This document shows, piece by piece, positions 15,233 through 30,927 of a DNA stretch of 30,931 bases (position 1 is the first letter of the stretch; every line of letters begins with the position of its first letter). Both the position numbers and the translations under genes were made by a program. The notes under the pieces were generated by a model, which made no database searches, was not told where the DNA came from, and saw nothing but the letters and a program-made list of their open reading frames with translations. Location of the stretch: positions 1 to 30,931 of the IMG/VR virus record IMGVR_UViG_3300046543_000274; one strand, written 5' to 3'. Origin of the DNA: a virus.

Positions 15233-15491
15233 GTCTACCTCCTCGACCCACTGGGTCACGGTTTGTGTTAAGATTAACGCCAGGGTTTTGGATTGCCCAG
15301 ATGAGCGCCTCGAGGCCGATTGTGGCCAGTGCGGCCTCAGGGTAAGCCGCCGAGATGACGGCGATGACATCCTCGGCGATCTGCTCGGTGTTGCGCGCAG
15401 TCGGGTCTTGGATGATTGATATAACATCGGTTAGCGGGAACTGCCGCACCGCATCAACCATGGCGTTTAGTCGGGAATAGGTGAGGGTCAT
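15225..15491 (-). CDS. Hypothetical small protein
   Basis: This 88-aa protein begins MTLTYSRLNAMVDAVRQFPL at 15491, with the ATGA overlap with the lipoprotein gene. It is helical in the first half, with a hydrophobic stretch at about 41-66 (DVIAVISAAYPEAALATIG...LIWAIQ) that is only moderately hydrophobic, then a polar Arg/Gly end. Not recognised. The reading frame is supported by coupling on both sides. Confidence 0.7.
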   Translation of the reverse strand: MTLTYSRLNAMVDAVRQFPLTDVISIIQDPTARNTEQIAEDVIAVISAAYPEAALATIGLEALIWAIQNPGVNLNTNRDPVGRGGRRA

Positions 15492-15874
15492 TTGAAGTCG
15501 TGGGTGATGATCCAGTCAACGGTGGACTGGGGAAGGGCGTATTTGTGCTGGATGAGGGCAATGTCAGTGGGAGAAAGCGCCTTCATCTTGATGCCGTTGA
15601 GCAACCCACCCTGCTGGAGGGTGACAAGCCCGGCGAAGATCGCGGCGACGGCACTGGCTTGGGTAAGGTTCGACCCGCCCGCCGTGACGTTACATGCGTT
15701 GATGACAGAGTTGAGCGCGGTGGTTTGTTTGTCGCTGAGAACAAGGCCAGATGCTGACAGGGCCTGGGCGGTAGTGCAAACATACTCAGCAACCGCCGTT
15801 GCGTCGGCCTGGGCCTGGGCATTACACCCAGCAAGGGTCAACCCAAGAAGTGAAACTACCAGAAACTTTCTCAT
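15488..15874 (-). CDS. Phage lipoprotein
   Basis: This 128-aa protein has a classic lipoprotein signal: basic start MRKF, hydrophobic core LVVSLLGL and lipobox TLAGC with Cys17. After cleavage the mature protein starts C-N, with no Asp at +2, so it would be sorted to the outer membrane in a Gram-negative cell. The mature part is Ala/Thr/Ser-rich and helical, with two more cysteines (about 33 and 61). Located in the small-gene block after the holin-like gene, it could be an outer-membrane component of lysis or superinfection exclusion. It is longer than usual Rz1-type spanins. The ATGA overlap with the upstream gene supports the start. Confidence 0.8.
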   Translation of the reverse strand: MRKFLVVSLLGLTLAGCNAQAQADATAVAEYVCTTAQALSASGLVLSDKQTTALNSVINACNVTAGGSNLTQASAVAAIFAGLVTLQQGGLLNGIKMKALSPTDIALIQHKYALPQSTVDWIITHDFK

Positions 15875-16577: not shown

Positions 16578-16591
16578 GTTGAGCTTCCTTT

Positions 16592-18676
16592 CTAACACGC
16601 GCCGGGAACACCATTCACGGTGAAGAAGGCTGCGGTCGGCACCCCAGCGGCACAGGTCGACCCAATCACCGATCCTGAGCCAACCGAGCCGCTGATGAGG
16701 GTGGTAACGTCAAAACCTTGGTTTCCATATATGGATATGTTCGCAGGTGACGATCCTAATAGTATCCCAAATGCCCCGGTGCTGGTAAAGTCGTGGAAGG
16801 TATTATTTGATATAACACTTGGCCCAACAGTGAAGCCAGAGTTCAAGGTGATGCCCTTATTCCCAACATAATTCCACGGCGATTGATTTTCTCCCTCAAA
16901 CGAGTTGTTTGTTAGGGCAATCCAGAAGCCGGCGTTTAGAAGTATACAGTTCGACCCACAGAAGTCGTAGTGATTTGCCGTCATGTTAAGTGTTTGTGGT
17001 TGGCCACTTGTTGCGGAGTCGGCCCTAAACCCATGCGCATAACCCAGGATTTGATCGCCAGTCATAGCAAGGGACTGACTATTGCCCTCCCACTCCACCC
17101 CAACTCCACCGAAGACTTGGGCTCCTGTCTCACCCCAACCGGCGTTGAGGTATGAGTTTGTCAAAGTGCAATTGAGACATTGGTCAAACTGAATGGTCGG
17201 CTGCTCAATCATTACTTGAGCGCCGTAGTTGAACATAATGATTGTATCCATAGTAATTTCTAATGATGGATTTGAAGCGGTGTATACAACACTAATCGAT
17301 GGAGGGATGCCACCAGTGCCATAGCCGATCGCCCCATCCCATTCTTGGAGGGTGATATGGCTGATGTCGATTTGAAGTGTACCAACTTCGGAGATACAGG
17401 TGGGAGTACCGCTATTGCCAGTTGCGCCACCTAGGCATAGAATATGATCAATCCATTCCACTTCGGCTATGTTTTGATCGAGGCCGATTGCTCCAGGAAC
17501 AAGCTTGAAGGTGAGCCCGGAGATGTGGTTGCCACCTGTGGCAGGGGCCCATTTAAATACGCTCTCGTCAGGAAACACTGTTTGAATGATAGAGTTTGGA
17601 AGCTGACCTTTTATACCAACCCCTTGAGGGACGGTTAGGCCTGTTGAAGTGGCGATGTAGTATGTTCCGTTACTGAAGTTAATTGTGCCCGGTGGAGATA
17701 AGGCACCAGCAGCCGTGAGTGCGGCTTGGATTGCCGCGCCGTCGTCGTGGTAAATACCTTGAGTTGTGGCGGCAGTGGTTGATGCACCGGCAAGGGTTAG
17801 GCTTGTGGTCCCGCCACCGCTAGAAATGGTGGTAACCAGCGCATCTGCAAGTGACCCTGCCCATGCCGTTGTCGGCACCCAATCGATGAATGGGAAAGCG
17901 GTGTAGCCTCGATCTTCGAAGTAAACTTCGCCATTTGCCACAATGCCGACAGTTGTGAACGTGCCGCTTATGTTTTTGAGTACGGCATATCCCGACGGCG
18001 CTGTGCCTGAAGCTGGCGCTGTCCAGGCAACGAGGTTGAAGTTGGCATAACCTAACGATGCACTGCCGGTGGTGGTTTGGAAGGATGCGATCAGAGCGCC
18101 CACACCACCATTAGCATCGAGGGAGGCAATTCGGTATTGATAAGTGGTGACGCCTGGCGTGCCTTCCGGCGTGACAACCCCTCCGGTTGGGGGATTGAGA
18201 GTGAAGGCGGCGCCTGCGTGATTGACGCGGATGCCTTGTCCATTGACGAAATCCTTCGCCAGGGCTAGTGTCAGGGTGTGCGATGCTGCTGAGATTGTGC
18301 CCGTGGTGTTTTGGGCCGATCCACTAACGTTGGCAATGCCAGCACTTGGGATCGTGCAACTCCCGCCAAGCGCGCAGGTAACGCCGTTGACGATGGTTGA
18401 TCCAATCACCTGCCCGACCTTGGAGGCGGTGCTGATCAGCACGTAGGTATCGGTAAAGCCAGAGGTGTTGGTCGTGCCGTTGGTGATGGTGGTTGACCCA
18501 CCGCCCCCAACTGCGGCCTGGACGAAGGCGGTGCTCGCACAGGAATTGTCACTGGTCCCAGGTGGGCGAGTTTGGCAAAACACCTGTCCCTGCGCAATGG
18601 CGTGTTCAGTCCCACGTTGGGCGAACGGAACGGCGAGAGCGATGAGGGCGAAGAACCCGATGAGCCACTTATACAT
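16592..18676 (-). CDS. Tailspike-like protein, beta-helix, with N-terminal signal peptide
   Basis: This 694-aa protein begins with a Sec-type signal: basic MYK, hydrophobic core about 4-18 and a plausible cut after AIA28. Next come a Cys-containing linker, a Gly-rich stretch and an Fn3-like module at about 176-258 (TYQYRIASLDANGGVG...WTAPASG...GYAV). From about 309 (IYHDDGAAIQAALTAAG...INFSNGTYYI) it has the 'DDGAAIQAAL' start and short Asn/Gly-rich strand repeats of a right-handed beta-helix of the pectate-lyase or spike type, suggesting polysaccharide binding or depolymerisation. No catalytic residues can be fixed by eye. The start overlaps the upstream stop by 8 bases (ATGTATAA). The beta-helix DNA is clearly lower in GC than the N-terminal DNA. 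Confidence 0.8.
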   Translation of the reverse strand: MYKWLIGFFALIALAVPFAQRGTEHAIAQGQVFCQTRPPGTSDNSCASTAFVQAAVGGGGSTTITNGTTNTSGFTDTYVLISTASKVGQVIGSTIVNGVTCALGGSCTIPSAGIANVSGSAQNTTGTISAASHTLTLALAKDFVNGQGIRVNHAGAAFTLNPPTGGVVTPEGTPGVTTYQYRIASLDANGGVGALIASFQTTTGSASLGYANFNLVAWTAPASGTAPSGYAVLKNISGTFTTVGIVANGEVYFEDRGYTAFPFIDWVPTTAWAGSLADALVTTISSGGGTTSLTLAGASTTAATTQGIYHDDGAAIQAALTAAGALSPPGTINFSNGTYYIATSTGLTVPQGVGIKGQLPNSIIQTVFPDESVFKWAPATGGNHISGLTFKLVPGAIGLDQNIAEVEWIDHILCLGGATGNSGTPTCISEVGTLQIDISHITLQEWDGAIGYGTGGIPPSISVVYTASNPSLEITMDTIIMFNYGAQVMIEQPTIQFDQCLNCTLTNSYLNAGWGETGAQVFGGVGVEWEGNSQSLAMTGDQILGYAHGFRADSATSGQPQTLNMTANHYDFCGSNCILLNAGFWIALTNNSFEGENQSPWNYVGNKGITLNSGFTVGPSVISNNTFHDFTSTGAFGILLGSSPANISIYGNQGFDVTTLISGSVGSGSVIGSTCAAGVPTAAFFTVNGVPGAC

Positions 18677-19076
18677 TCGAGTCAGTCACTGTGAGAGGGT
18701 TGCTGGAACCGGTGACGGCCAGGGCTTGCCATGCGCCTTGACACTCGCCGGAGAAAGTGCGTGAACCACCATTAGCGTAGATGCGGTAACCTCCAGCAAG
18801 AGCGGAGGTAGTGGGGGAAAGTGCTACGTTGGACAAGGACACCTGTCCACTCACGGCATTCTGTAGTGTGCTGGCACTAGTCCAACTTGGGTTGCTGGCT
18901 TGGACAAAACACGGGAACACGACAATGTCCACGGTCCCCGGGTTGTCGAAGGTGATCTGTGTCCGCTGTTGGTTGGCCGGTGCCACCACCTCCGACGTAG
19001 TGCCGAGGTTGCTGAACGCATAGACCTTGCCACCTGAGGTGGGGCCTACCGGTGCTACGTCGAAGGCAGAAGGCAT
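18669..19076 (-). CDS. Hypothetical phage structural-type protein
   Basis: This 135-aa protein starts MPSAFDVAPVGPTSGGKVYA at 19076, with AGGAT upstream. It is beta-rich with frequent Thr/Ser/Gly and the pattern 'QQRTQITFDNPGTVDIVVFPCFVQAS', 'AGGYRIYANGGSRTFSGECQGAWQALA'. This pattern is common in small phage proteins that decorate heads or tails. Two Cys (about 56 and 112) may pair. It sits between the 185-aa protein and the spike. Function unassigned. Confidence 0.7.
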   Translation of the reverse strand: MPSAFDVAPVGPTSGGKVYAFSNLGTTSEVVAPANQQRTQITFDNPGTVDIVVFPCFVQASNPSWTSASTLQNAVSGQVSLSNVALSPTTSALAGGYRIYANGGSRTFSGECQGAWQALAVTGSSNPLTVTDSNV

Positions 19077-19082
19077 GGCGAG

Positions 19083-19640
19083 TTATCCTAACTGACGAGC
19101 AGATTTGTTCAGCTTATCCATCATCGCGGCTTGGTTAACCGAGATAGTGGCAAGCTGTTTGACGAGGTCCTCGAGGCCGGGGATGACGAGTTGTTGCGGG
19201 ACCTGTGCCTTGTCCCGGATCGAGGCCATTTCGGTGTCGAAGCGTTCGATGAGGGACTGGCTGTGGGAGATGCCATCCATTCCTTCGGGTTTGTACTGCC
19301 AAGCTGTGGCGAAGGAAGCGGAGATTTCCCGAGCTTCGGCGTCGAGCGGGTCCATCTCAGGGGTGGGATCGCCGAGGAACTCAACGTCCCCGGGATTGCC
19401 CTTACCCTTATGGCAGACGATGATGTTGCCGTCGACTTCATCAAAGCTGCCACCTTTGGCAACTCCAACACCTTCCGGCTTCTCCGTCCAGTCTGCGGGG
19501 TCCTTCAAGTCCAGGAACCGCGGGACTTGCATGCGGAGCCGATCCTCACGCCCGGTCTTGCGGTTGATTTGCTTGTATTCCCATTCCCAAGGTTCGACAA
19601 CGTTAAGGTAGTGGGAAGTGCGTAAGCGCCAACGTGCCAT
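19083..19640 (-). CDS. Conserved phage protein of the capsid-spike interval
   Basis: This 185-aa protein starts at the ATG at 19640 (MARWRLRTSHYLNVVEPWEW), which follows the upstream stop by one base and has GGAG about 8 bases before. The N-terminal part 'MARW.LRT.HYLNV....WEYK..NR.TG' and 'IIVCHKGKGNPGDVEFLGDPTPEMDPLD' is a pattern I recall from podoviruses next to the cement gene, function unknown. The C-terminal 60 residues are an amphipathic coiled coil (IPGLEDLVKQLATISVNQAAMMDKLNK). No signal peptide. A role in head completion is possible. Confidence 0.75.
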   Translation of the reverse strand: MARWRLRTSHYLNVVEPWEWEYKQINRKTGREDRLRMQVPRFLDLKDPADWTEKPEGVGVAKGGSFDEVDGNIIVCHKGKGNPGDVEFLGDPTPEMDPLDAEAREISASFATAWQYKPEGMDGISHSQSLIERFDTEMASIRDKAQVPQQLVIPGLEDLVKQLATISVNQAAMMDKLNKSARQLG

Positions 19641-19641
19641 T

Positions 19642-20298
19642 TCAATTCTCCGTCCATTCAATGTAACCATTGACAGTGCTGGGGGCAGTGCCGCCCACGT
19701 AGTTTAGGCAGTACTGCTCCGTGGTAGCGCCTGAGGGAATGTCCAGGCCCTGACTATAGGCATCAACACTAGTGCCGAATTGCCAGATCAAGGTCGGGTT
19801 CGTTACAGGGGTTGTCGCAAGAGCGGAGAGGATGATACTCGAGCGAATGGTGGTGACGGTACCGCCGATGGTAGGATTGCCACCGGTGGTATTATACGCA
19901 ACCACCACCGCTGTAGCGGCAGGGTTTGCGGAGTTGAGTGGGTAGGCAATCGGACCATACGTCGCGGCAACAGCAGCCGTGCCGGTGTCGAGGCCTAGGT
20001 TGTGGTTGAGGTAGATCGGCTGGGTCAAGCCAGTTCCGGTTGCGCCAATCTCGATCCTCCGCACACTGATGGCTTTGGTTGCCGAGCCAGAGATGCAGAA
20101 GAAGTCGGTTGGAGTGGCGGCCGGGACTAGCTTGAGGATTGCCGCGGAGTAGGTCTTTGCCCGAATGTTGGCGCAGTTAATACCAACAGCCGGGACATAG
20201 TTGACTCCGCAACCCGCAGTCTGTGCGTGTGCAGAAGGCGCCGGAACTAGGGCATAAAGCCCTAGCGCCATCGCCGTGGAGAGGAGGAGTTTCTTCAC
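19642..20298 (-). CDS. Secreted-type phage protein of unknown function
   Basis: This 218-aa protein has an unmistakable Sec signal peptide: MKK, core LLLSTAMALGLYALVPAP and cut after SAHA25 (AHA|Q). The mature part begins TAGCGVNYVPAVGINCANI, has four Cys in all, and is rich in Ala/Thr/Gly with strand-like repeats (SAAILKLVPAATPTDFFCISGSATKAISVRRIEIG). It lies among head genes, between the capsid cement and the 185-aa protein. It looks like a beta-sandwich decoration-like protein. A periplasmic signal on a protein in this position is odd. Start by ATG at 20298 with AGGAGA nearby. Confidence 0.8.
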   Translation of the reverse strand: MKKLLLSTAMALGLYALVPAPSAHAQTAGCGVNYVPAVGINCANIRAKTYSAAILKLVPAATPTDFFCISGSATKAISVRRIEIGATGTGLTQPIYLNHNLGLDTGTAAVAATYGPIAYPLNSANPAATAVVVAYNTTGGNPTIGGTVTTIRSSIILSALATTPVTNPTLIWQFGTSVDAYSQGLDIPSGATTEQYCLNYVGGTAPSTVNGYIEWTEN

Positions 20299-20310
20299 AG
20301 CGATTTCTCC

Positions 20311-20868
20311 TTAGTTCGCGACGTTCACGCCAGCGGGATAGCCGGAGTAAGTCGGGCCCGATGCCGGGATTTGCTGGTCAAGACCCATCGCCACAAACGC
20401 TTCGATCTTGCCGAGTGAGTTGGTGGAGGTGGTGATGAAGTTTAGTTTAAGAAACCGGGGGATACCCTGACCCGGGATTGTGCGTGGAACATCAACATTG
20501 GCGAGTTGGGTACCGGCAAGAACAGCCGCAGCCGCATAGGCCGGGGATGTCCACATGGTGGTTAGGGTGCCGATACCACCAGAGCCATCATCAATCGCGC
20601 CCTGGAGTTGGAGTTGGATGGTGGTGCCGGCCGAGAAACCCACCGTAGCGATGGCGGAGAGTTTCATTGCCGGATCATCGCCAATGCCGATGTCTCGTGC
20701 GCCGCCACCATTGGCAGAGGATGGAATACCCGAGGTAACGCCAAGGTCGAGGATGTTGGACGCCGCCTGAGTGCCGGTGGTGGGAAGGTCAGCATAGGCC
20801 GAGGTGGTGATGCCACCGCTTGCCCCATTGCTGGTCCCGGTGAAAAGCATAAGTCCGTCGATGATCAT
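20311..20868 (-). CDS. Bbp16-family capsid cement protein
   Basis: This 185-aa protein begins MIIDGLMLFTG, the conserved start of the Bbp16 cement family, followed by ...ASNILDLGV...GGARDIGIGDDPAMKLSAIATVGF and the closing '...LKLNFITTSTN.LGKIEAFVAMGLDQQ'. The family clips the capsid lattice at three-fold positions to stabilise the head in BPP-1-like podoviruses. It is encoded directly after the major capsid gene, as in BPP-1. AAGGAC about 8 bases before the ATG at 20868 gives the start. Confidence 0.87.
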   Translation of the reverse strand: MIIDGLMLFTGTSNGASGGITTSAYADLPTTGTQAASNILDLGVTSGIPSSANGGGARDIGIGDDPAMKLSAIATVGFSAGTTIQLQLQGAIDDGSGGIGTLTTMWTSPAYAAAAVLAGTQLANVDVPRTIPGQGIPRFLKLNFITTSTNSLGKIEAFVAMGLDQQIPASGPTYSGYPAGVNVAN

Positions 20869-20911
20869 GATACAGGTCCTTTTTAGGTGCTGGTTGCTCG
20901 CTGCTAACTCG

Positions 20912-21955
20912 TTAGGTCACCTGCGCTTCGGTGGAGGTGATCGCGTCAACCGTTCGGATGGGAACGCCACGGAAGGTGGTGACGACCATACCGTTGAACT
21001 CCTCGAGACGGAGCAAGACGTTGGTTTTGTTCATCGCCTGTAGGTCGAGGTAGGTGCGGATGATACGATTGCAGTAGAACACCAAGCGGCCCTGGTTTGC
21101 GCGGACCTCGGGAGTGTCCGAAGTCTGGATGGCGGTGGCGTTGGCAGGCGCAGTTGGCAAACGATACAACCCACGAACGAGGAGGTTGATTAGGTTCGCC
21201 GCCGAGACACCTGTTAGCTGCGTCACGTCGATGTTGGCGATACGGAACACATAACGCCAATCGCGGAGGACAAGGCCGATTTCCCACTTGAAGTGGTCCC
21301 GGTAAGCTTGGTAGGTGTTGGATGCGCTGTCCAGCACAGGCCATTCGCCCATATCCCGATGCTGAAGGCCAGTGATTTTGCCCTTCGGGAAAGTTGCGTG
21401 GAGAGTGTCGTTGCCCCACACCACGCCCCAGATGGAGGTGTTGGTGTTGGACGTGCCGCCGCCGTTGAGGACGTTGTTGGCGGTCTGCGAATTAGCAGTC
21501 GTCACTGTGCTGTACCGTGGTGCAAGCCCGGTGAACCGCTCAGGGTTGACGTGCTGGTTGCCGTAGATTAGGGTTGTGGCAACCTGCTGGGACATACCCT
21601 CTAGGAACGCTTTAACTTCGGAGAGACGGAACTCCGCGGTGTTGCCGTTGAGGTCCGCAATGTCCTTGTCGATGACGGCGTAGGTTTCGAGATTACCGCA
21701 CGTGTCGACGATTTGCGCGGTCGTGCTTTTGGCATTGGGAACACCTGTGTTAAGCAAGCGCCAAGTTGCCTGCGGAAGGCCGGTCCGGACTGTGGTTTTG
21801 TGTCCGGTTTCCTGATTGCCCTGGACAACGAGCATGTCGTCAAGGATTTCATTAGTCTGGGAGAGGAGTTCGATGATCGAAGCTATTCTACCCATGCCGT
21901 CTGTTCTTTTGGCCCAATCTGCGTACGTTAGGGCCACACTACCGATGGTCGCCAT
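20912..21955 (-). CDS. Major capsid protein (BPP-1 Bbp17-like, HK97 fold)
   Basis: This 347-aa protein has the typical starting segment 'TYADWAKR.......IIELLSQTNEILDDMLVVQGN', then GHKTTVRTGLPQATWRLLNTGVP and 'AVIDKDIADLNGNTAEFRLSEVKAFLEGM', the N-arm and E-loop/P-domain features of BPP-1-type capsid proteins. A conserved later section is 'GNQHVNPERFTGLAPRYST'. No N-terminal delta-domain is evident, in keeping with a separate scaffold gene. It is followed by the cement gene. The ATG at 21955 overlaps the HNH gene's stop (TAATG). Confidence 0.9.
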   Translation of the reverse strand: MATIGSVALTYADWAKRTDGMGRIASIIELLSQTNEILDDMLVVQGNQETGHKTTVRTGLPQATWRLLNTGVPNAKSTTAQIVDTCGNLETYAVIDKDIADLNGNTAEFRLSEVKAFLEGMSQQVATTLIYGNQHVNPERFTGLAPRYSTVTTANSQTANNVLNGGGTSNTNTSIWGVVWGNDTLHATFPKGKITGLQHRDMGEWPVLDSASNTYQAYRDHFKWEIGLVLRDWRYVFRIANIDVTQLTGVSAANLINLLVRGLYRLPTAPANATAIQTSDTPEVRANQGRLVFYCNRIIRTYLDLQAMNKTNVLLRLEEFNGMVVTTFRGVPIRTVDAITSTEAQVT

Positions 21956-22440
21956 TACAGTGTTCTCCTGTGAATTGCAAACTCTCCAGCGATTTCATCA
22001 GCCGCCCGTAGGTATGCTTGATGCGCTTCTTCTGGAGAATTAAAATTACCCAAGAACTTCACCTGACGACCGAATTGGATTTTTGAATACCACTGTAGGT
22101 ATCGTTTGTCCAAGTACGCCCCTCTGAGGCCGGACTCTCCAAGTGTAGATTGAGCATTGAAGTTATTCTGCGTACGCGTACATACTCGTAGATTAGCGAT
22201 ACGATTATCGCTGCCGTCACCATTGATATGGTCTATTTCGTCGGGATATTCTCCATAGACGTAGTACCATGCCAAGTGATGTTCGTAATGTTTAGTGTAG
22301 TCGATTATGATACGACGATAGCCGTGGCCGGTGAATGCACCTGCACGATCACCTTCCTTGGCCCGACCACGAGACACACGGTTGGTGAACCAGCCTGTTT
22401 CGGGATTGTAATCGAACATATCTTCAAGATATATGGTCAT
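21955..22440 (-). CDS. HNH homing endonuclease with AP2-like domain
   Basis: This 161-aa protein has an HNH core at about 51-95: HHLAWYYVYGEYPDEIDHINGDGSDNRIANLR, in which His71 and Asn80 are probable metal/catalytic residues. The C-terminal part, about 102-154 (SGLRGAYLDKRYLQWYSKIQF...EEAHQAYLRAADEIAGEFA), is an AP2-like DNA-binding domain. This domain pair is typical of free-standing homing endonucleases that move between phages. It sits exactly between scaffold and capsid genes (ATGA in front, TAATG behind), and its DNA is more AT-rich than its neighbours (24 of 60 G+C in bases 22141-22200, against 34 of 60 in 21601-21660, by hand). Confidence 0.92.
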   Translation of the reverse strand: MTIYLEDMFDYNPETGWFTNRVSRGRAKEGDRAGAFTGHGYRRIIIDYTKHYEHHLAWYYVYGEYPDEIDHINGDGSDNRIANLRVCTRTQNNFNAQSTLGESGLRGAYLDKRYLQWYSKIQFGRQVKFLGNFNSPEEAHQAYLRAADEIAGEFAIHRRTL

Positions 22441-23099
22441 GCATTCCCCGACGGAAGGTTCGGATACATCATTTCCGCTAGGCTCTTACGGGGTTGATTG
22501 GGCGCTTCCTGACCATTGGGCGATGGGCCGCGTCCGGTGACATGTTTGCCCTCGATAAAGGATTGCGACATCTTCCAGAAGGTTTTGACGAATGCAGGGT
22601 GATCGCCTGCGCCGGTTAGGTTCATGGCTTCTTCGAAATCGGCGCGGAGCTTTGGGTCGAGGGAGGCTTTGAACTGGCCGATGTCGGATTTGATTTGGTC
22701 AAGTCGGCCCGCCATGTCAGGGTCTTTCTCAACCTGGCTGCGCCAATCAGCCCGCATGGCTTCGACGAATTTCACGTTTTCCTTCGACAGTTCCTCAACT
22801 CGCCCGTTCCAAACGCCCATCAACTTATCGGCCTGAGCTTGTGTGAGATTAAGTTCCTTGAAGACGGGGATAGCTGCGTCGATGGCGGACTGGTCGAGGG
22901 ACTTACCATCGGCAGGTTTGAACTCGTACTTTTCCGGGGCGCCGGTCGGGGTGGTGGCATCGGGTTGTTTGGCATCAGTTGTCGTAGTCCCTTGGCTCTG
23001 ATCCTTGAGTGTCCCGTCCGAAGTCCGGGCTTCCGGCGTATTCCCCGGAATCTGTTCGGTCGGGGTTGACTGCGGCGTCGAGTTCGGTTCGTCGGCCAT
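22437..23099 (-). CDS. Capsid scaffolding protein
   Basis: This 220-aa protein has a disordered Pro/Thr/Gln-rich N-terminus (about 1-55), then EKYEFKPADGKSLDQSAIDAAIPVFKELNLTQAQADKLMGVW, a motif of podovirus scaffold proteins. An amphipathic helical region and a basic C-terminal end (NQPRKSLAEMMYPNLPSGNA), probably the capsid-binding part, complete it. Gene order before the major capsid gene fits. GGAGAG 8 bases upstream of the ATG at 23099 supports the start. That start lies inside the preceding gene, 125 bases before its end. Confidence 0.85.
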   Translation of the reverse strand: MADEPNSTPQSTPTEQIPGNTPEARTSDGTLKDQSQGTTTTDAKQPDATTPTGAPEKYEFKPADGKSLDQSAIDAAIPVFKELNLTQAQADKLMGVWNGRVEELSKENVKFVEAMRADWRSQVEKDPDMAGRLDQIKSDIGQFKASLDPKLRADFEEAMNLTGAGDHPAFVKTFWKMSQSFIEGKHVTGRGPSPNGQEAPNQPRKSLAEMMYPNLPSGNA

Positions 23100-23385
23100 T
23101 AGCTTCTCTCCACATTGTTATGTATTGGTCTGGGCAGTTCTGCATTATGTCTAGATAGATACGAAGTCCTACGTTGCGTTCACCCTTCACCGCAGCTTCG
23201 GTATATGGATTGCCAGTCCATGGATCGGAGAACATATGGCAGGACTCGAGGAGGTCGTAGAACCATTGACGCCCACCTGGACTTGAAAGACAGGACTTGA
23301 GAAAGTCTGTCTTCATCTGGTCCGCCCGTTGCTGGGCTTTTTCAGCAGCGCGGATTTGTTTACGATCGGAGGCGTTGTAGGGCAT
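22975..23385 (-). CDS. Bbp19-like phage protein
   Basis: This 136-aa protein has the conserved section 'SSPGGRQWFYDLLESCHMFSDPW...AAVKGERNVGLRIYLDIMQNCPDQYITMWREA' (about 35-95), which matches a small protein family encoded upstream of scaffold in BPP-1-like phages (Bbp19). Its role is unknown. The last 41 codons read through the scaffold's start in another frame; that extension is acidic and Asp/Gly/Ser-rich and probably less conserved. The ATG at 23385 overlaps the DUF4177 gene's stop (TAATG). Confidence 0.82.
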   Translation of the reverse strand: MPYNASDRKQIRAAEKAQQRADQMKTDFLKSCLSSPGGRQWFYDLLESCHMFSDPWTGNPYTEAAVKGERNVGLRIYLDIMQNCPDQYITMWREANGRRTELDAAVNPDRTDSGEYAGSPDFGRDTQGSEPRDYDN

Positions 23386-23570
23386 TAGGACTTGGGCCGC
23401 TTTGCTAGGATGAAAACCGAACAGGTGGTGTAGTCGGCGTTGAAAGCTGAACTCTCGTTAACAATCTCCCAGCCTTCCCCACCGAGGGCGTTGAACCATT
23501 CTAGACGAAGCCTTGACACATCCATGGATGTGAAGGTTTGGTTAAAGCTTTTATATTCCCACTGGGTCAT
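23385..23570 (-). CDS. DUF4177-like small protein
   Basis: This 61-aa protein is MTQWEYKSFNQTF... with 'LEWFNALGGEGWEIVNESS......VFILAKRPK', the 'WEYK...LN.LG.EGWE.V......FKR' pattern of DUF4177. The family is widespread and of unknown function, a small beta-helix-beta fold. It is found directly after the portal gene and is ATGA-coupled to it (23567-23570). Confidence 0.8.
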   Translation of the reverse strand: MTQWEYKSFNQTFTSMDVSRLRLEWFNALGGEGWEIVNESSAFNADYTTCSVFILAKRPKS

Positions 23571-25339
23571 TGGCCTAACATCTTTTCGAGGGCGTTACCA
23601 TCACCCACAGGGGCGGTGGCTAGGTTCTTTGCGCCGGCGCTGAGCTTCTGGGCGATGTCAGCTTGCTGGGCTTGCTGCATTTGGTCGGCACGTTGCTTGC
23701 GGATTGCGGCGAGAGCTTCGGGCGAACGGATCATCTTTGGGTCGTTGCCGAGGAGGCTGCTGATTTTGTCCAGGCCGTAGTCTACGTCGATGTTGTCCAT
23801 GGCAGATGGATCGATGCCTGCTAGCTGAGCGCCGAGGGTGAAGACACGTTCGATTGATCCGGCAGAGGTGGCTTGTTGGGCTTGGGACAACATGCTCACA
23901 AACTCAATGTTCAGGAGTTGTCCCTGTACCTCTGGTGGTGGCGGTGGTAGGACGCCTGCTCGATTGGCAATATTGAAGGTGCGCTCAACAATGGGTTTGA
24001 GGACTTCTGTATCAATTCTCTCCAATACCGGTCCAAGCATAACAAGCGCCTCAGATTTCCTGAGGTCCCATTCAACCGCCGTAACGTTCGAGCGAGTTTC
24101 GTACTGACTGGCGACCTTGAGGACGTCATTAAAGAAGACTTGCGAGACACGGTTCTTGACCTCCATTAAGTCTTGGGTAATTTCCTGGACGGGGAACTTG
24201 GTTTCATACACAGACGCAAAACCCGGTTTGCCACCGTTCGTGAAACCAGCAACATAGGTAATGCCGCCTGGGGTGAGATTGGCAGGTTGGTTCTTGAGTT
24301 GAACATCAGCCACAAGCGGAGGATTGACCATCTTGTCAATTGCCTGAGCTTTGCGACGTTGCTCGAGTTGGATTTGCTTAATGTCAGGTAGCGCATCCAT
24401 GCCTGGGCTTCGGCCGTAGGGATCATTGGAGACAATGTCCCATCGGCCTATGATAGCTGGCTTTTCACTATAGCCTCGCTTGCGTAGAAATCCAGGAGGT
24501 GCCGTAGCGCCGCCCTGAGGCGATGTGCTTCCGCCCCATTCCCAATAAGCTTCTCGGTAAGCCCAACGGGCATCATAACCGAAAGATCGAGCATTGCCAT
24601 CGTCATTGGGCTCGATGGAATGAGCGACGATGAGTTCGCGGGTTCGGTTGGCGCCTGAGGTGTCATTGTATAGTTCCTGGATTGGGGCCGAGCAGTTTTC
24701 AAGGCCGAACTCACTGACGCAGGCATCAACGGTCATGGTGAATTCGCGGTAGAAGATGCAGGGGCGATAGTTGCCGTCGATGTCGACGTAGTATTCGCCG
24801 AGGCATGGGTTGATGAAGTTGACGACGGTTTTGAAGTCGGGGTATTCGAGGGTGACTGCGGTGCCGAAGACCACCATGTCGAAGTAGAAAACGCCGATTG
24901 CGGTGTAGAAGTTGCTCTCAGCAAAGATCAGATAAAGTAGGCGCTCACACTCCGCAAGCCACAAAGATACGGGCGAAGTCTGAGTGGAGTCGAGCTTCCC
25001 AATCTTTAGACGGAACCATTGTTGGGTTGGGGAACTCTTCCCAGAAACTAGGCCTGACGCCAAGTTGCGGGCGCAGATGGTACCCGTAGAGTCCAGGATG
25101 TGCTGGTTGATCGGGGCTCCGCGGGCCATTTGGTTCGGGGTGATCAGCCATTTGTATCTCCTGGGCAGGATGAAGTCGGCGAGTTCTCGCCAATGAACCC
25201 ACCATGAATAGCGATTGACACGAAGCGCGATGAGTCGACCTTCGCAGTAGCGATGGTAAGCGTACTCGGCTTCGCTAATCGGGCGAACTGGGCCGACCGT
25301 TCGAGCCTTGAACGGGTTATTGCCCGGCGACTTGGCCAC
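23567..25339 (-). CDS. Portal protein (podovirus head-tail connector)
   Basis: This 590-aa protein has the podovirus portal layout: 'Y.RYCEGRLIALRVNRYSWWVHWRELADFILPRR' at about 28-65, 'LDSTGTICARNLASGLVSGKSSPTQQWFRL' and '...LAECERLLYLIFAESNFY...DMVVFGTAVTLEYPD'. A second conserved segment is 'GRWDIVSNDPYGRSPGMDALPDIKQIQLEQRRKAQAIDKMVNPP', followed by the C-terminal helical barrel. It forms the 12-subunit entry ring for DNA. The start codon is GTG at 25339, with a weak AAGAAAGA before it, inside the end of the preceding small gene. The stop overlaps the DUF4177 start. Confidence 0.9.
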   Translation of the reverse strand: MAKSPGNNPFKARTVGPVRPISEAEYAYHRYCEGRLIALRVNRYSWWVHWRELADFILPRRYKWLITPNQMARGAPINQHILDSTGTICARNLASGLVSGKSSPTQQWFRLKIGKLDSTQTSPVSLWLAECERLLYLIFAESNFYTAIGVFYFDMVVFGTAVTLEYPDFKTVVNFINPCLGEYYVDIDGNYRPCIFYREFTMTVDACVSEFGLENCSAPIQELYNDTSGANRTRELIVAHSIEPNDDGNARSFGYDARWAYREAYWEWGGSTSPQGGATAPPGFLRKRGYSEKPAIIGRWDIVSNDPYGRSPGMDALPDIKQIQLEQRRKAQAIDKMVNPPLVADVQLKNQPANLTPGGITYVAGFTNGGKPGFASVYETKFPVQEITQDLMEVKNRVSQVFFNDVLKVASQYETRSNVTAVEWDLRKSEALVMLGPVLERIDTEVLKPIVERTFNIANRAGVLPPPPPEVQGQLLNIEFVSMLSQAQQATSAGSIERVFTLGAQLAGIDPSAMDNIDVDYGLDKISSLLGNDPKMIRSPEALAAIRKQRADQMQQAQQADIAQKLSAGAKNLATAPVGDGNALEKMLGQ

Positions 25340-25484
25340 TGGTGTCTTTCTTAATCAAGCGGCCATCTTTGTGCATGAGCGCTGCGGCCATTAGGAGGAA
25401 GTTTGGGTCGGGCGGTTGGGTGGTGGACATCGGGCCCTGGGGTTGGGTGGGGACATCTTTGCGAATGGGGACGACGAGGGCCAT
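25317..25484 (-). CDS. Small protein upstream of portal
   Basis: The ATG at 25484 opens a 55-aa frame: MALVVPIRKDVPTQPQGPMS followed by 'PDPNFLLMAAALMHKDGRLIK', ending in GQVAGQ. The 'PN.LLMAAA.MH..GRL' core is a small conserved element that I recall preceding portal genes in podoviruses, function unknown. It begins 3 bases after the previous stop and overlaps the portal GTG by 23 bases. A start at the internal ATG (25430) is an alternative. SD is poor. Confidence 0.6.
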   Translation of the reverse strand: MALVVPIRKDVPTQPQGPMSTTQPPDPNFLLMAAALMHKDGRLIKKDTSGQVAGQ

Positions 25485-25487
25485 GAC

Positions 25488-25769
25488 CTATTGCCCCAAC
25501 AATGTCTTGCCCTGCCCGCCGATGGTGTTGGCTTGGGCAGGTGCGGCGGCTGCGGCGAGGAAGGAAGGCGCTTGCTGTGGTGCGGCGCCCTGGGGTGAGC
25601 CTTGGGGTTGTTGGGCTGGGGGCGGGGTTGGTGGGACGAGGGGTGCGGGCGGGGCCTTGGGCTTGGGGGCGAGGAGACTGCCAGCAGCACCGACAAGGGC
25701 TGAGCCAAGGCCGATTGCCGCGGAGACTGGTTCGCAGAGGATCACGGAGTAGAAGTCATGGGGTTTCAT
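25488..25769 (-). CDS. Small Pro/Ala-rich protein, 'CEP' family of podoviruses
   Basis: This 93-aa protein has ILCEPVSAAIGLGSALVGAAG (about 9-29): a short hydrophobic stretch with a 'CEP' start, followed by a Pro/Ala/Gln-rich disordered middle and the closing GGQGKTLLGQ. Podoviruses often encode this kind of protein (M.CEP.... then a Gly/Ala helix and 'LLG' end) near the portal. Function unknown, possibly virion-associated. The ATG at 25769 overlaps the stop of the previous gene (ATGA). A GTG at about 25745 would give a form starting nearer to CEP, but has no SD. Confidence 0.72.
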   Translation of the reverse strand: MKPHDFYSVILCEPVSAAIGLGSALVGAAGSLLAPKPKAPPAPLVPPTPPPAQQPQGSPQGAAPQQAPSFLAAAAAPAQANTIGGQGKTLLGQ

Positions 25770-25951
25770 GCCGCAGTTTCCCTTGCCTTGACCCATGCCT
25801 TTTCCTTAACAGGCCGGATGGTGATTTCGTTGTGACTAAGAAAGTAGATCAGTTCACGGATTTCCAAATGCCAACCATCTTCATCGACTATGACGACGTC
25901 AGTGTTGTCGGGGAACTTGGCAAGCTGGGCGGTGAGTTCTTCTTTGGTCAT
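25766..25951 (-). CDS. Small DGWH-motif protein, paralogue of the 5868-6059 gene
   Basis: This 61-aa protein starts MTKEELTAQLAKFPDNTDVV and has VDEDGWHLEI. It matches the 63-aa protein beside the giant ejection gene at about 16 of the first 35 positions (TK.EL..L...PD, V.VD.DGWH..I), while the C-terminal halves differ. It is ATGA-coupled to the terminase stop and to the next gene. The family, an N-terminal helix followed by a strand, is common in phages and of unknown function. Confidence 0.8.
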   Translation of the reverse strand: MTKEELTAQLAKFPDNTDVVIVDEDGWHLEIRELIYFLSHNEITIRPVKEKAWVKARETAA

Positions 25952-27468
25952 GCGGCAATCCTCTCGGGATCGTAGGGATCGTACTCGGACTCGACAAGAT
26001 CGGCGTGGGGGAACTCGCCACCAGCGATTGCGGACGGGGCAAGTGGGCCGCCGAATGTACAGGCAAGGGCATCGAGATCGTCAAGGACAAGGTTGGGATT
26101 GTCCTCCATTAGGTCTTCTTTGGAGAGGAGGAGGATGGCGCCGGTCTTCTCCTGGATGGTATAGCGGATGGCGAGCATTGCTTGCTTTAGTTCGGGGTCG
26201 TTGGGTAGGGCGCCACCTTTAAGCCACGCTCTGATAGCGCCGTACATAGCGGCGCGCATGTTGGCGTATTTCTCGCCAGAATTGTCATTGCTGATGCCAG
26301 TGATGGAATCTTTGCCCCCGAATTGCACTTCTGTAACAGCAAGACGTACATTGCGACATTGATCAACAACGCCACCACCGACACCGCCGCCATCAATGAA
26401 TATGCCATCTGGGCGCCACAGTTGCCAGCATTCGAAGATTTTGTTGGTGAGTTCGGTGGTGGAGAGGCCATTGAAGGAGAGCCGGGCTATGGATCGGGCG
26501 TCCCGACCTTTGCGGGGGAAGATGACGGAGTTGTTGCCGCCGTATCGGGCGACGTCAACCCCCATTGCGAAGGGGGTTGAGCGATCGGTGTACGGGACTT
26601 CGCGGCGCATTGCTTCGTCGATGTCGGCTGACGAGAAGAATTCTTGAAGACCACGCCTCGGGAATTGACCGAGAACGCGGACGCGAACGAAATCACTATC
26701 CGCGCCATAGGTCTTTATCCATCTTTCAAAGCGGGATTTGTTGGTGATCTTGACTGTTCTGCTGTCGATCTGGCGGCTGTGCCACGACTCCGCATGACTT
26801 CCTCCCTCAAAGCATTCTCGAAAGCGGCCCACGTTTCGGGTGGGGTTTCCAAATACGAGCCAGAGGATTTGAGTGTCCGTGTCTGTGAGCGCGCCCTCGG
26901 CTGTTTCCCAAATGATGTCATCGATTTCTGACGCCTCGTCAAAGAGAAGGATGATGCGCTTGCCTTGGTTGTGGAGGCCAGCGAATGCGGCGGGATGGTT
27001 TTTGGACCACGGCACCATGTCGATGCGCCAGGTGAACTTGCGACCGGGATCGCGGGAGAAGAGGGCAGTGGCCTCGAGTTGGAATAGGTCTTGGGAGAAC
27101 CAACAGAGATTGAACCACTTGCCAAGTTCTGCCCAGGTTTTGGTTTTTAACTGGACTTCAGTGTTGGCGGTGATGGTTCCACGGCAATCGGGGTAGGTGC
27201 AGAACGCCCAGAGGATGATCCAAGCGACGGTGGCGGACTTGCCAATGCCGTGACCGGAGGCAGTTGCTTCTTGGATTGCAGCGTTGGGAGTAAGGAGTCC
27301 CACTCGGATACGCTCAAAGAGTTCACGCGACCACTCGTCTGGGCCATCGAATTTCTCCAAGGTTGATCCCGGCACTCCCCATGGATAGGCGCCAAGGGTA
27401 AAGCCAAGTGGATCGCCGGAGTATTTGGCAAGCCACTCGAAGATTGCGTCGTGGTTAGCGTCAGCCAT
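25948..27468 (-). CDS. Terminase large subunit
   Basis: This 506-aa protein is the packaging motor ATPase and nuclease. The Walker A region is ASGHGIGKSATVAW (Lys77) with the flanking 'EATASGHG', and Walker B is RIILLFDEASEI (Asp177, Glu178). The C-terminal RNase H-like nuclease has AMGVDVARYG (Asp305), GIFIDGGGVGGGVVD (Asp359) and VLDDLDALA (Asp463/464/466). A motif for ATP coupling (WLVFGNPT) lies at about 203-210. I use the ATG at 27468, which overlaps the preceding small gene's stop as ATGGCTGA; a GTG three codons earlier is possible. No small terminase gene is next to it. Confidence 0.93.
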   Translation of the reverse strand: MADANHDAIFEWLAKYSGDPLGFTLGAYPWGVPGSTLEKFDGPDEWSRELFERIRVGLLTPNAAIQEATASGHGIGKSATVAWIILWAFCTYPDCRGTITANTEVQLKTKTWAELGKWFNLCWFSQDLFQLEATALFSRDPGRKFTWRIDMVPWSKNHPAAFAGLHNQGKRIILLFDEASEIDDIIWETAEGALTDTDTQILWLVFGNPTRNVGRFRECFEGGSHAESWHSRQIDSRTVKITNKSRFERWIKTYGADSDFVRVRVLGQFPRRGLQEFFSSADIDEAMRREVPYTDRSTPFAMGVDVARYGGNNSVIFPRKGRDARSIARLSFNGLSTTELTNKIFECWQLWRPDGIFIDGGGVGGGVVDQCRNVRLAVTEVQFGGKDSITGISNDNSGEKYANMRAAMYGAIRAWLKGGALPNDPELKQAMLAIRYTIQEKTGAILLLSKEDLMEDNPNLVLDDLDALACTFGGPLAPSAIAGGEFPHADLVESEYDPYDPERIAA

Positions 27469-27586
27469 GGAACACACTAGAAAACAGACCCAGCGCCATC
27501 AAGCCGATGAAGCCCAACGACACCAGCGAGGCGCTGGGTCCGACCAGCAGCGGGGGAGGCCGCTTGCTGATTGGGGGATTAGTCAT
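27461..27586 (-). CDS. Small single-helix membrane protein upstream of terminase
   Basis: Reading from the ATG at 27586 gives 41 residues: MTNPPISKRPPPLLVGPSAS, then the hydrophobic segment LVSLGFIGLMALGLFSSVF and HG. It is flanked by perfect couplings: TAATG with the 1113-aa gene's stop and an 8-base ATGGCTGA overlap with the terminase start. A GGGGGG run lies a few bases before the ATG. One transmembrane helix is predicted by eye. The gene also contains the inverted repeat described separately, so part of its sequence may be constrained as RNA structure. Function unknown. Confidence 0.6.
   Translation of the reverse strand: MTNPPISKRPPPLLVGPSASLVSLGFIGLMALGLFSSVFHG
27487..27540. repeat. 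Perfect 11-bp inverted repeat, hairpin-forming
   Basis: GACCCAGCGCC at 27487-27497 is the exact reverse complement of GGCGCTGGGTC at 27530-27540, separated by 32 bases. In the minus-strand transcript this makes a GC-rich stem followed by TGTTTTCT, which is partly U-rich. It lies inside the 41-aa gene and its proximal arm is 19 bases before the terminase ATG. It could be an attenuator or partial terminator between the fibre and terminase genes, a ribosome-access hairpin, or a packaging-related site. Confidence 0.6.
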
Positions 27587-30500
27587 TAGTTCCCCCCGCA
27601 GGTGTAGTCGAAGACAAGGCTGCTCGTGCCAGTGCCGAGGGTCCAGGTAAAACCAGAGGCAGATATGGCAGAGAGATAGTCACCGCCGGTGATTGCTGCG
27701 CCCCCCGGGGATGCTGGAGTCACGGTACAGAAGGCTGTGGTTGGGTAAGCATGAGCGAAGGTGATCGTGCAGGCGGTTGGAGACCCTGTCCCCATAGTAA
27801 ACGATCCAAATATGTTTGTCGATCCGGCGGCGACGGATGGGCTCCCTGTGCCGCACGAGGAAATTGTTGGCGCGGAATCCTGCACGATGCCAACCGGCTT
27901 CCACAGCATGAACATGATCTGATGGCCAGACGCCGCACTGGCGGTAGCAGTGGACTGGAAGGTCAGCGTTGTAGAGACACAAGTGCTCACAGTTCCTATG
28001 AGCAAGGGTATAGCGGGGTTAGAGTTATCCATAACCGGCGTACCAGCCGGAAGTGAATACGCAGGACAGCCGCCGATGGATACGGATGTTGTTACTCCGC
28101 CAGTGACAGCGCTCCCGAGGTTGGTTTGACCGTTGTAGGTGTCTATCCAAGCGAAGTTTGTCCCAGGAAAGGCATTCTGATTGAAATGAATGTCTCCGAA
28201 TTGGTGGAATGTTGCCGCAGGAATGGATACTCCCTCATCCAATAAGCGCTCAGACCCTATCCCACCCCCACCTGCTTCTGCGTCATAAAGCAATAACCCT
28301 TGCTGAAAACTCATGAGCGCTAAATTTCCAGCCGTATATCCCGTATACCCACCAAGCGCGCCCTCCGTCATCAACATAGTATTGCCGCCGGCCCCGGTAA
28401 AATAATCCCAAACCCAAAATCCGCGCGTATCCCATCCTATAGTCCATGTCTCAGGACCGCCGCAACCTTGATTATCGCGCGACCAGGCGAGGACGTCCCC
28501 CGGTTTATTCATACAGACCGACATTCCATAACTCGGGCCTGCAAAAAACCAATTATTCGCAAAATTGTTATTATAGATAACGGGTGCCCCCGTTGGCGTG
28601 GTCGTTTGCGGAAATATAAAGGCAACTACGCCACCCGAGGTAGGGGCAGTATCCAGTCGATCATTCAGACAGTATCCGCCCGTTGTCGGTGCGTACCCAC
28701 CGAAAAAAGAGCTTGAATTAGAATTTACACACTCCCCCACGATGCTGTAAAGTGCGGTGCTTGCTTCTTGGCTATTGGCATTCTCATTATAGTACGTACT
28801 TCCAACCGCGCCACCCTCGACAATATCGGCAAACGAGTTGTATGAGTAGATATTACTAAACGAAGTGCTAGCCCCGGCGTTGTCGCCCATGACCATACGC
28901 CCAAATATATCAAACACAAATATATTTTCTTCTGCCAGTGAAGCGTTACATCCAGAGTGAGCGCTGCTCCAAAATGAGCATTCCATCTCAAGACCAATGC
29001 CGAAAGTACCCAGCCAATTCCTTTTTAGACTGAATCCCGTAAAGGTCTTGATCGCGGCTGGAATGATCCACATGTGACCCCCAGTCTCCGACTTGGTCGC
29101 ATTTGTCGTGGCGGAATTGTTGAGGGAATAAGGGGCCATTGTGACCGTCTGCGCGACCGGACCACCTCCAGTATTGCTAGTGGTTAATATCGTCGTCCCG
29201 AACGGAAAGGCGTCGGACCAGATAAAATCCCCTGGTTGCAATACGCTTGGACCGGCCGTAACTGTAACGTCTGGGCTGCCAGAGGAGGTGTTGACTGTGA
29301 AAGCATCCTCTACCGGCAACCGCCAAAGCCCAAACGCAGCACCAGTATATCCTGAAATGAGCGGAGAACTCGGAGTGATAGATACCCCAGGATTTGTGGC
29401 GGTGATAGTTGCCCCAGGCGCAATTGCTGGCTGTCCATTTGTCGGACCATACAGATATGTAATAATGCCATCGCCTACATGGAAACCCCATGTTCCAAAA
29501 TATTTATCTGCTCCTATGCTAATAACGGCATTGGAACCCGTTGTTACTGGGTAACCCTCGTAAAATCCACTATTAACAATGCCGCATCCCTGCATTCCAC
29601 CACCCGGCAGGCCAGTTCCGTCTGGTGATGTGCTGAAGTTGTCAAATATTACCCCATGAACGCCAGCGGGGAATACTAACCTAGTTCCCGAATCTGCACC
29701 CATCCATCCTTCGCACCGGATCATCATTGGACGAGTCACATGGAATGGCGCAGAGAAATAGTAGTTAGTGTACTCCTGCCCAGGAACTTTGGGGAAATGA
29801 ACGTCTGACTGGGAGGCTTGGGATCCCGTATTCATCAAGGACATTAAAGTGGGGACAATCGACGAATTGTCGGTAATTCCATCGCCAACCATTCCGATTT
29901 GTCGCACGTCGATCCCGTCGCTCAATTGGAGGATGTATCTGCCTGCGGTGCTTGAGCTTTGGCCAGATGGCAAGATGCAGGCGATCCCATCTGCTGCAAC
30001 AGGCGATCCCATCGTGCCGCCGTTGCAAAAGCCATAGGTTGTAGTGTTCCACTGATACGTCGCCTGACCACCATCGCCAGCGGCATAGAAGCCTGCCTGG
30101 GTGAGCGTATTGGTGCTGAAAGCGGTCGTGGCAGATATGAGCGCGGCGTGCGTGGCAAAACCAGTGATGGTTCCGCCGCCAGAGATTGTGATGGAGGCGT
30201 TGGGGGTAGAGCCGCCGACCGTCGCGCCGTTAATGGTAAGAGCGGTGGTCGGGCTTACTGTGTGGGTTCCATCGGTGATGGATAGGGAGCCTCCTCCACC
30301 GCCTGTGGCGTTGACGGTTTGGTTGGGGAACGAGCCGCTGATGGTGATGTTGGTTCCAGCGATCACGCCGCTGGGTGAGGCGGAACCAGTGCCGCCATTG
30401 CCGATAGGGAGGGGATTGGCAAGACCGCCGAAGGAGCCAGAGTTGTTGTATTGAATGGAGCCATTTGCGCCGCCTGGGGTTGTGCCACCACCCCCACCAC

Positions 30501-30927
30501 CAGTAGTGTTGCTGCCGTTGAGGGATGCGGCATTTGGGCCGAAGGTGGCGTTGAAGGTGACGCCAGAGCCGGTGCCAGATGTGGAGAGTTGGGTGAGGGT
30601 ACAAACACCGTTAAGGCCACCGGCGAGACCTGTGGATGGGATGGAGGTGGCGACGCCAGGATTGTTCAGGACCCAGGCCGATCCGTTCCAGGTGACGACT
30701 GGGTGGACGGTGTTTGGGCCGAGGAAGGTGGAAGTGTTGGGACAGTCGAGGGTAACGGTATCGTTGGTGGCGTAACCGGAACCGGGAGTGGCGACGGAGA
30801 ATGGGGATGCCATCACGCCCCAGAGAACGTGGTTGAGGGCGTAGATGCCGGAGGTGCCATTGAATTGGGCGTGGGCGTTGGTGCAATAGAGGAGAATGAT
30901 GGCAGCGGTAAGGAAGCGCTTTATCAT
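27586..30927 (-). CDS. Large tail fibre/tailspike with signal peptide and beta-helix
   Basis: This 1113-aa protein starts MIKRFLTAAIILLYCTNAHA, a Sec signal with a cut after AHA20, then QFNGTSGIYALNHVLWG. Residues about 41-131 form a Gly/Thr-rich beta module (PGSGYATNDTVTL...TSGTGSGVTFNATFG) related to those in the gatekeeper and nozzle. Residues about 144-260 are Gly-rich linker and collar-type repeats (GGANGSIQYNNSGSFGGL, GNGGTG). From about 338 (IDVRQIGMVGDGITDNSSIV) begins the 'GDG.TD' start of a pectate-lyase-like beta-helix, running to about 950, with a C-terminal knob (about 960-1113). It probably binds or cuts cell-surface glycans. The N-terminal DNA has more GC than the beta-helix DNA. 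The start is 4 bases from the window edge, so no upstream context is visible. Confidence 0.82.
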   Translation of the reverse strand: MIKRFLTAAIILLYCTNAHAQFNGTSGIYALNHVLWGVMASPFSVATPGSGYATNDTVTLDCPNTSTFLGPNTVHPVVTWNGSAWVLNNPGVATSIPSTGLAGGLNGVCTLTQLSTSGTGSGVTFNATFGPNAASLNGSNTTGGGGGGTTPGGANGSIQYNNSGSFGGLANPLPIGNGGTGSASPSGVIAGTNITISGSFPNQTVNATGGGGGSLSITDGTHTVSPTTALTINGATVGGSTPNASITISGGGTITGFATHAALISATTAFSTNTLTQAGFYAAGDGGQATYQWNTTTYGFCNGGTMGSPVAADGIACILPSGQSSSTAGRYILQLSDGIDVRQIGMVGDGITDNSSIVPTLMSLMNTGSQASQSDVHFPKVPGQEYTNYYFSAPFHVTRPMMIRCEGWMGADSGTRLVFPAGVHGVIFDNFSTSPDGTGLPGGGMQGCGIVNSGFYEGYPVTTGSNAVISIGADKYFGTWGFHVGDGIITYLYGPTNGQPAIAPGATITATNPGVSITPSSPLISGYTGAAFGLWRLPVEDAFTVNTSSGSPDVTVTAGPSVLQPGDFIWSDAFPFGTTILTTSNTGGGPVAQTVTMAPYSLNNSATTNATKSETGGHMWIIPAAIKTFTGFSLKRNWLGTFGIGLEMECSFWSSAHSGCNASLAEENIFVFDIFGRMVMGDNAGASTSFSNIYSYNSFADIVEGGAVGSTYYNENANSQEASTALYSIVGECVNSNSSSFFGGYAPTTGGYCLNDRLDTAPTSGGVVAFIFPQTTTPTGAPVIYNNNFANNWFFAGPSYGMSVCMNKPGDVLAWSRDNQGCGGPETWTIGWDTRGFWVWDYFTGAGGNTMLMTEGALGGYTGYTAGNLALMSFQQGLLLYDAEAGGGGIGSERLLDEGVSIPAATFHQFGDIHFNQNAFPGTNFAWIDTYNGQTNLGSAVTGGVTTSVSIGGCPAYSLPAGTPVMDNSNPAIPLLIGTVSTCVSTTLTFQSTATASAASGHQIMFMLWKPVGIVQDSAPTISSCGTGSPSVAAGSTNIFGSFTMGTGSPTACTITFAHAYPTTAFCTVTPASPGGAAITGGDYLSAISASGFTWTLGTGTSSLVFDYTCGGN

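Follow-up and report, generated by a model that had tools for sequence, protein, structure and literature searches.

Three proteins encoded in the late region of the virus record IMGVR_UViG_3300046543_000274, a tail fibre, a tail spike and a small protein beside the capsid genes, carry Sec-type signal peptides (SPs), and we favour, with moderate confidence, the reading that such spikes, fibres and decorations are exported, oxidised in the periplasm and docked late onto the particle through an adaptor that has no SP. The window (the whole stretch analysed, a 30,931-base IMG/VR record of one virus) has a late gene set of the epsilon15/BPP-1 podovirus type. The three pre-proteins, all encoded on the minus strand, are a 1113-amino-acid (aa) fibre (27586..30927), a 694-aa, weakly pectate-lyase-like tail spike (16592..18676) and a 218-aa protein adjoining the head genes (19642..20298). 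Each begins with a basic n-region, a hydrophobic core of about ten residues and an A-x-A cut site, as expected for Sec export and cleavage by signal peptidase I (SPI). They were scored with a rule-based script of our own, which uses the n-, h- and c-regions plus cleavage-site preferences drawn from general knowledge; calibrated on annotated Escherichia coli K-12 genes with a threshold of ≥6, it accepted 11/11 SPI substrates, 0/54 cytoplasmic proteins and 4/25 membrane-type N-termini. The fibre scored 11.8, the spike 8.3 and the 218-aa protein 12.0, and the cuts chosen (AHA20, AIA28 and AHA25, each followed by Q) agree with those of a first-pass annotation that had pointed to these N-termini. 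The fibre SP (residues 1-20; 30868..30927, minus strand) reads MIKRFLTAAIILLYCTNAHA with Q after the cut; those of the spike (28 residues, ending in AIA before Q; 18593..18676, minus strand) and of the 218-aa protein (25 residues, AHA before Q; 20224..20298, minus strand) are of the same type, and the GTG start of the latter gene is preceded by a strong Shine-Dalgarno sequence (AAGGAG). A fourth window gene with a signal, for a 128-aa lipoprotein-type protein described below, scored 12.0, and the remaining 23 genes scored 1.9 or less. The presence of predicted Sec/SPI-type SPs on the fibre, the spike and the 218-aa protein is confirmed, as is their absence from 23 other window genes.

The signals are kept in relatives. 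About 85 related virus loci were surveyed, using the same gene caller for the SP-bearing and the core families. An SP was found in 24 of 25 homologues of the 218-aa protein, 8 of 9 spikes and 11 of 13 fibres (43/47 in total), against 0 of 406 distinct proteins in sixteen core families (terminase, portal, scaffold, capsid, cement, nozzle and others). This excludes chance as the cause of the three SPs, as had been argued from the window; the count of three independent cases given there was too low, the trait spanning dozens of families and recurring in the unrelated phage Tunturi_1. Free choice of start codons as the source of the SP calls is ruled out by the same 0/406. Three apparent exceptions (L047, L048 and L058) are miscalled starts and have SPs once corrected, two (L007 and L015) are apparently truncated open reading frames (ORFs) and one, L061, is a genuine SP-less fusion to a docking domain. 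In total, 186 SP-bearing genes lie on the coding strand of the related loci, and in some relatives several neighbouring or consecutive genes bear SPs. In L010, the capsid of which is 98% identical to that of the window, the homologous spike, fibre and 218-aa genes carry the same kind of signal in different letters. The fibre ORF of the window runs to the end of the contig, but an artefact of the contig end is ruled out by the L010 fibre (1125 aa, SP score 11.0), in which the same 20-residue SP recurs and the ATG start overlaps the stop codon of the gene before it.

Proteins that arrive in an oxidising compartment are expected to have their cysteines in pairs. With the SP removed, the cysteine count is even in 167 of 175 exported proteins (167:8 even:odd), although it tells against these raw counts that homologues share ancestry, so that they overstate independence and the ratio obtained with one representative per cysteine-containing family, 42:5 (P = 2e-8 against 1:1), is the fairer figure. 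The ratio for the core proteins is 252:131, with 62 of the even ones being cysteine-free scaffold proteins and counts varying freely within families, and for the non-exported proteins of a Terriglobia assembly it is 232:219. Exported proteins contain 1.67% cysteine and core proteins 0.74%; the mature fibre, spike and 218-aa protein of the window have 18, 12 and 4 cysteines, respectively. The residue after the cut (+1) is Q in 148 of the 186 phage SPs (80%), despite the scorer preferring A there, and in the 218-aa family Q26 is invariant in 21 homologues, in contrast to the greater part of the leader. A Q-rule, with Q following the SPI cut in most exported proteins, is described for Bacteroidetes (PMC5837995); the likeness here is in the residue after the cut, and the difference is that it occurs in a Terriglobia assembly and in putative phages. 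The Terriglobia assembly (G013, loci L148-L183), an Acidobacteriota genome, itself has a Q-rule-like bias at +1, where 23 of 37 exported proteins have Q.

Neither the cysteine parity nor the Q at +1 would be expected if the proteins stayed uncut or in the cytoplasm. Taken together, they make export very likely, and judged from these sequence properties we are close to certain that the SP-bearing proteins are exported. They also disfavour an option left open by the first-pass annotation, that these N-termini are anchors mimicking signals, whether they would stay uncut in a membrane or be hydrophobic helices embedded in the virion. The four membrane-type N-termini from E. coli that pass the scorer speak for such anchors, but the strong AxA cut sites before Q, the 80% of Q at +1, the invariant Q26 in an otherwise variable leader and a parity that points to oxidising folding are properties of cut sites and mature proteins, and uncleaved anchors appear very unlikely.

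The spike gene sits directly behind a small gene without an SP. In the window this is g135, a 135-aa protein (18669..19076, minus strand) that overlaps the spike start and that we propose, from its coupling to the spike and its fold, to be a cytoplasmic virion adaptor or docking protein. Where the neighbour is of the g135 type, the mature N-terminus of the adjacent spike is CxTRPxGDxSNACASTAFV or a variant of it in 19/19 cases; with a neighbour of the unrelated g141 type, the mature spike begins with QCNGVFPxxTxCGN in 7/7 cases, plus two after start correction (the script labels split the first class, which was re-read by eye, and some rows are near-identical relatives). In three relatives the fibre and the g141 docking module form a single protein, in each case SP-less. 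In L062 a full docking domain (E = 2e-20) precedes canonical tail-fibre repeats (PHROG tail fiber, 9e-13); the docking-peptide matches of the other two are weak, L036 (E = 0.006) continuing as a PHROG tail fiber (2e-20) with a Peptidase_S74 end and L061 (E = 0.004) as a pectate-lyase spike (PF12708, 1e-7). These fusions have few cysteines or an odd number of them (1, 4 and 7). Residues 33-52 of the window spike (FCQTRPPGTSDNSCASTAFV; 18521..18580, minus strand) form the tail-fibre 'TAFV' motif with a cysteine pair that is seen only in exported copies: it is present in 17 of 18 of these and in 0 of 3 unexported copies (a fourth SP-less match, an unrelated nozzle sequence, was left out), as in FCATRPAGDSSNACASTAFV (exported, L033) versus KAPTPSPGDNDTSIATTAFV (fused, L062). 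The coupling, the SP-less fusions and the contrast in the cysteine pair point to one slot with two alternative arrangements: a conventional fibre with the docking module fused on, or an SP-less docking protein paired with a separate, exported spike. The window spike, with its docking module, lies in this receptor-binding slot.

The AlphaFold (AF2) model of g135 is an all-beta sandwich with a predicted local distance difference test (pLDDT) score of 81. It has 15 viral fold matches in BFVD at E ≤ 0.001, to small tailed-phage proteins that are uncharacterised where named, which fits a particle protein without naming it. The model of the 218-aa protein (pLDDT 73) is all-beta in its mature part, apart from the leader; neither this model nor that of g135 matched a PDB fold at E ≤ 0.001. 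Three SP-bearing proteins of relatives (L012:12221-13318, L071:3522-4853 and L073:12686-14014) contain a stretch related to the g141 beta domain (E = 0.0025-0.008), a hint of domain exchange between docking modules and exported proteins.

In six related records of 44-50 kb (IMG/VR class, linear) the two ends overlap exactly, by 31-127 bases, and these records are thus complete or nearly so. Gene lists were compared in full for G001, G003, G004 and G011. In all four the spike in the slot has an SP and small lysis-type genes then follow the large internal virion protein; an SP-less spike of the epsilon15 type after the internal virion proteins was not found in them, the window itself ending before that position. 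The window shares head, portal, nozzle and internal-virion genes and their order with epsilon15 (Salmonella, Uetakevirus) and BPP-1 (Bordetella, Rauchvirus), the major capsid proteins (MCPs) being 43-47% identical. In those phages, however, the spikes and fibres follow the internal virion proteins and have no SP (epsilon15 gp20, -7.8; Mtd, -1.1; bbp9, -7.8), whereas the window spike lies between the cement and nozzle genes and has one. The spikes of the isolate relatives epsilon15, BPP-1, UFJF_PfDIW6, Caulobacter RapA and Microcystis Mel-JY33 are all SP-less, and 27 cellular loci outside Terriglobia have almost no SP genes in the spike region, L093 being the exception. The SP trait as a general property of the epsilon15 group is thereby rejected. 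L093 (12923-16471), a Gluconacetobacter prophage-like contig, has two consecutive fibre-like genes with strong SPs followed by a shared motif, NWxQNYxPxxxEWxxWW; the products have 5 and 16 mature cysteines.

The trait recurs in the cultured Tunturiibacter phage Tunturi_1 (PP887698; PMC11924767). Like the window phage, it is an Acidobacteriota podovirus with a run of large, SP-bearing, cysteine-rich proteins that includes a tail spike; it differs in belonging to a 63-kb lineage with another gene set. The SPs are on gp12, gp13, the annotated tail spike gp14, gp16 and gp17, with 20, 10, 20, 1 and 32 mature cysteines, respectively, and PMC11924767 makes no mention of signal peptides. Across these comparisons, the SP-bearing spike looks lineage-specific and has probably arisen more than once.

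From the SPs, their restriction to particular families, the disulfide signature, the coupling and the SP-less fusions we infer that the proteins are cleaved and oxidised and that they join the particle at or after lysis. Under this scheme the receptor-binding spike, accessory fibre and small beta-sandwich proteins near the head would all start as Sec pre-proteins, be exported to the periplasm and, once cut by SPI, acquire disulfides there by oxidation. The heads, the nozzle and the small SP-less docking proteins (g135 or g141) would assemble in the cytoplasm as usual. Lysis would mix the compartments, the mature spike N-terminus would bind the docking protein and the particle would be completed at or after lysis. 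The likely gain would be disulfide-stabilised appendages for a soil virus, beyond the reach of the reducing cytoplasm. Of the options raised in the first-pass annotation, export followed by a putative joining of the particle has the best support.

Several observations weigh against this scheme. Export alone is no proof of virion membership, and relatives such as L028 and L057 have docking-like proteins with no SP-bearing spike next to them. G011 has a 519-aa, SP-less, cysteine-free protein in the spike region and G001 a 276-aa SP-less protein, so some relatives may have an unexported fibre-like protein and not every fibre-like protein may be exported. The fibres of Tunturi_3 and Tunturi_4, cultured Acidobacteriota phages, are SP-less within the searched 50 kb (half) of each genome; export is therefore not a need of the host group, and the SP trait as a general property of Acidobacteriota phages is rejected.

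The main rival is that export and disulfide bonding do occur but the proteins have no place in the virion, serving instead as depolymerases, decoys or superinfection blockers that are secreted or held at the surface and are released before or at lysis. It explains the SPs and the cysteine parity equally well, and it gains from the bodies of the spike and fibre being only weakly or patchily similar to tail spikes: neither has a PHROG match, the window spike matches PF12708 below the curated cut-off (E = 0.004), fibre residues 258-356 are related to the docking-domain/pectate-lyase spike of L061 (E = 5.5e-6) and the L087 spike matches Beta_helix weakly. Yet the slot is a receptor-binding one in which relatives carry docking-domain fusions to canonical tail fibres, the mature N-termini match the type of SP-less neighbour, and the complete genomes G003 and G004 have no other obvious SP-less spike gene; we consider a purely secreted role the less likely reading. 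Profile searches of the fibre, the spike and the 218-aa protein found no peptidoglycan hydrolase domain of the kind expected of an endolysin with an SP or a signal-arrest-release (SAR) sequence.

Roles may also be mixed, with the spike and fibre joining the virion and the 150-220-aa proteins by the cement gene having a periplasmic or surface role such as exclusion or the timing of lysis. This reading overlaps with the late-docking scheme, and our confidences in the two do not sum to one. Across relatives the slot of the 218-aa protein is filled by several unrelated SP families, some in series, and its model lacks a fold match, both of which fit a separate role; set against this, the small proteins immediately follow the cement gene within the late block, and an all-beta fold such as theirs is common among decoration proteins. 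We regard mixed roles as a tentative possibility, and the 218-aa protein is probably a head- or tail-associated beta-sandwich decoration.

The host of the window phage is likely to be an acidobacterium. The MCP (20912..21955, minus strand; epsilon15 GP7 family, PF20911, E = 3e-130) and the Bbp16-like cement protein (20311..20868, minus strand; PF21190, E = 5e-6), SP-less core controls, mark the lineage together with the portal, two nozzle proteins and the internal virion proteins, and the order of portal, nozzle (phrog_376/394) and internal virion proteins is that of the epsilon15/BPP-1-type podoviruses. The capsid is at most 55% identical to those of isolate relatives, environmental relatives are plentiful at 84-98% identity and the best match among cellular genomes, at 81%, comes from a Terriglobia (Acidobacteriota) assembly, where it lies on one contig. 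When 299 Terriglobia genomes were searched for the MCP, only two matched, one of them the L089 genome itself, so that the host link, which depends on a single binned contig, is likely rather than proven. A Bacteroidetes host, an idea suggested by the Q-rule, is disfavoured by the 81% Terriglobia match, by the Q in the SPs of that assembly itself, by a GC content of about 55% and by clear Shine-Dalgarno sites.

In the textbook view the assembly of tailed phages is wholly cytoplasmic, and the filamentous phage M13 assembles in the inner membrane and leaves by extrusion. A literature search, in a collection that does not cover all journals, returned no report of SP-bearing tail fibres, and an export-then-late-addition route for tailed-phage spikes is not known to us. 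The Sec-exported endolysins (fOg44 Lys44 and the SAR endolysins; PMC6116005) are late proteins of tailed phages that take the host Sec route before lysis; they differ in being lysis enzymes rather than particle parts, and SAR signals first stay in the membrane. Also comparable is G3p of M13, a virion protein that binds the receptor and is synthesised with a Sec signal (PMC8310372), although the window phage is a tailed phage with a DNA-filled capsid. Whether a tailed-phage lineage splits virion assembly over two compartments that are joined only at lysis, an arrangement that would have had two or more origins among known or putative Acidobacteriota phages and perhaps a further one in prophages of acetic acid bacteria, seems to us evenly balanced.

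If the scheme is correct, particle completion would be an extracytoplasmic step and receptor-binding proteins would mature in the periplasm, making disulfide-stabilised spikes possible and host Sec, signal peptidase and Dsb host factors of the phage. Mature spikes might also escape into the medium and act there as free depolymerases or blockers. The fused and unfused spike pairs are a natural experiment, and Tunturi_1 is a cultured test system.

Three further genes deserve mention. In L113, from a gammaproteobacterial assembly, an epsilon15-type MCP gene (9884-10996) has an SP-like N-terminus, MKKIFSSQNQMMLFAFVATAMAMFGFADHASA followed by AG, with a strong Shine-Dalgarno sequence upstream and no other ATG near the usual capsid start. 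In the window, a 161-aa HNH-type homing endonuclease-like gene (21955-22440) sits between the scaffold and capsid genes, and a similar gene is found in the same place in L005. The 128-aa protein (15488..15874, minus strand) has a lipoprotein-type signal (LAGC17), of the different signal peptidase II class, with a PF08139 match below the curated cut-off (E = 0.024); it lies two genes away from a Pam3-type holin (16320-16598) and is possibly a lysis or outer-membrane factor.

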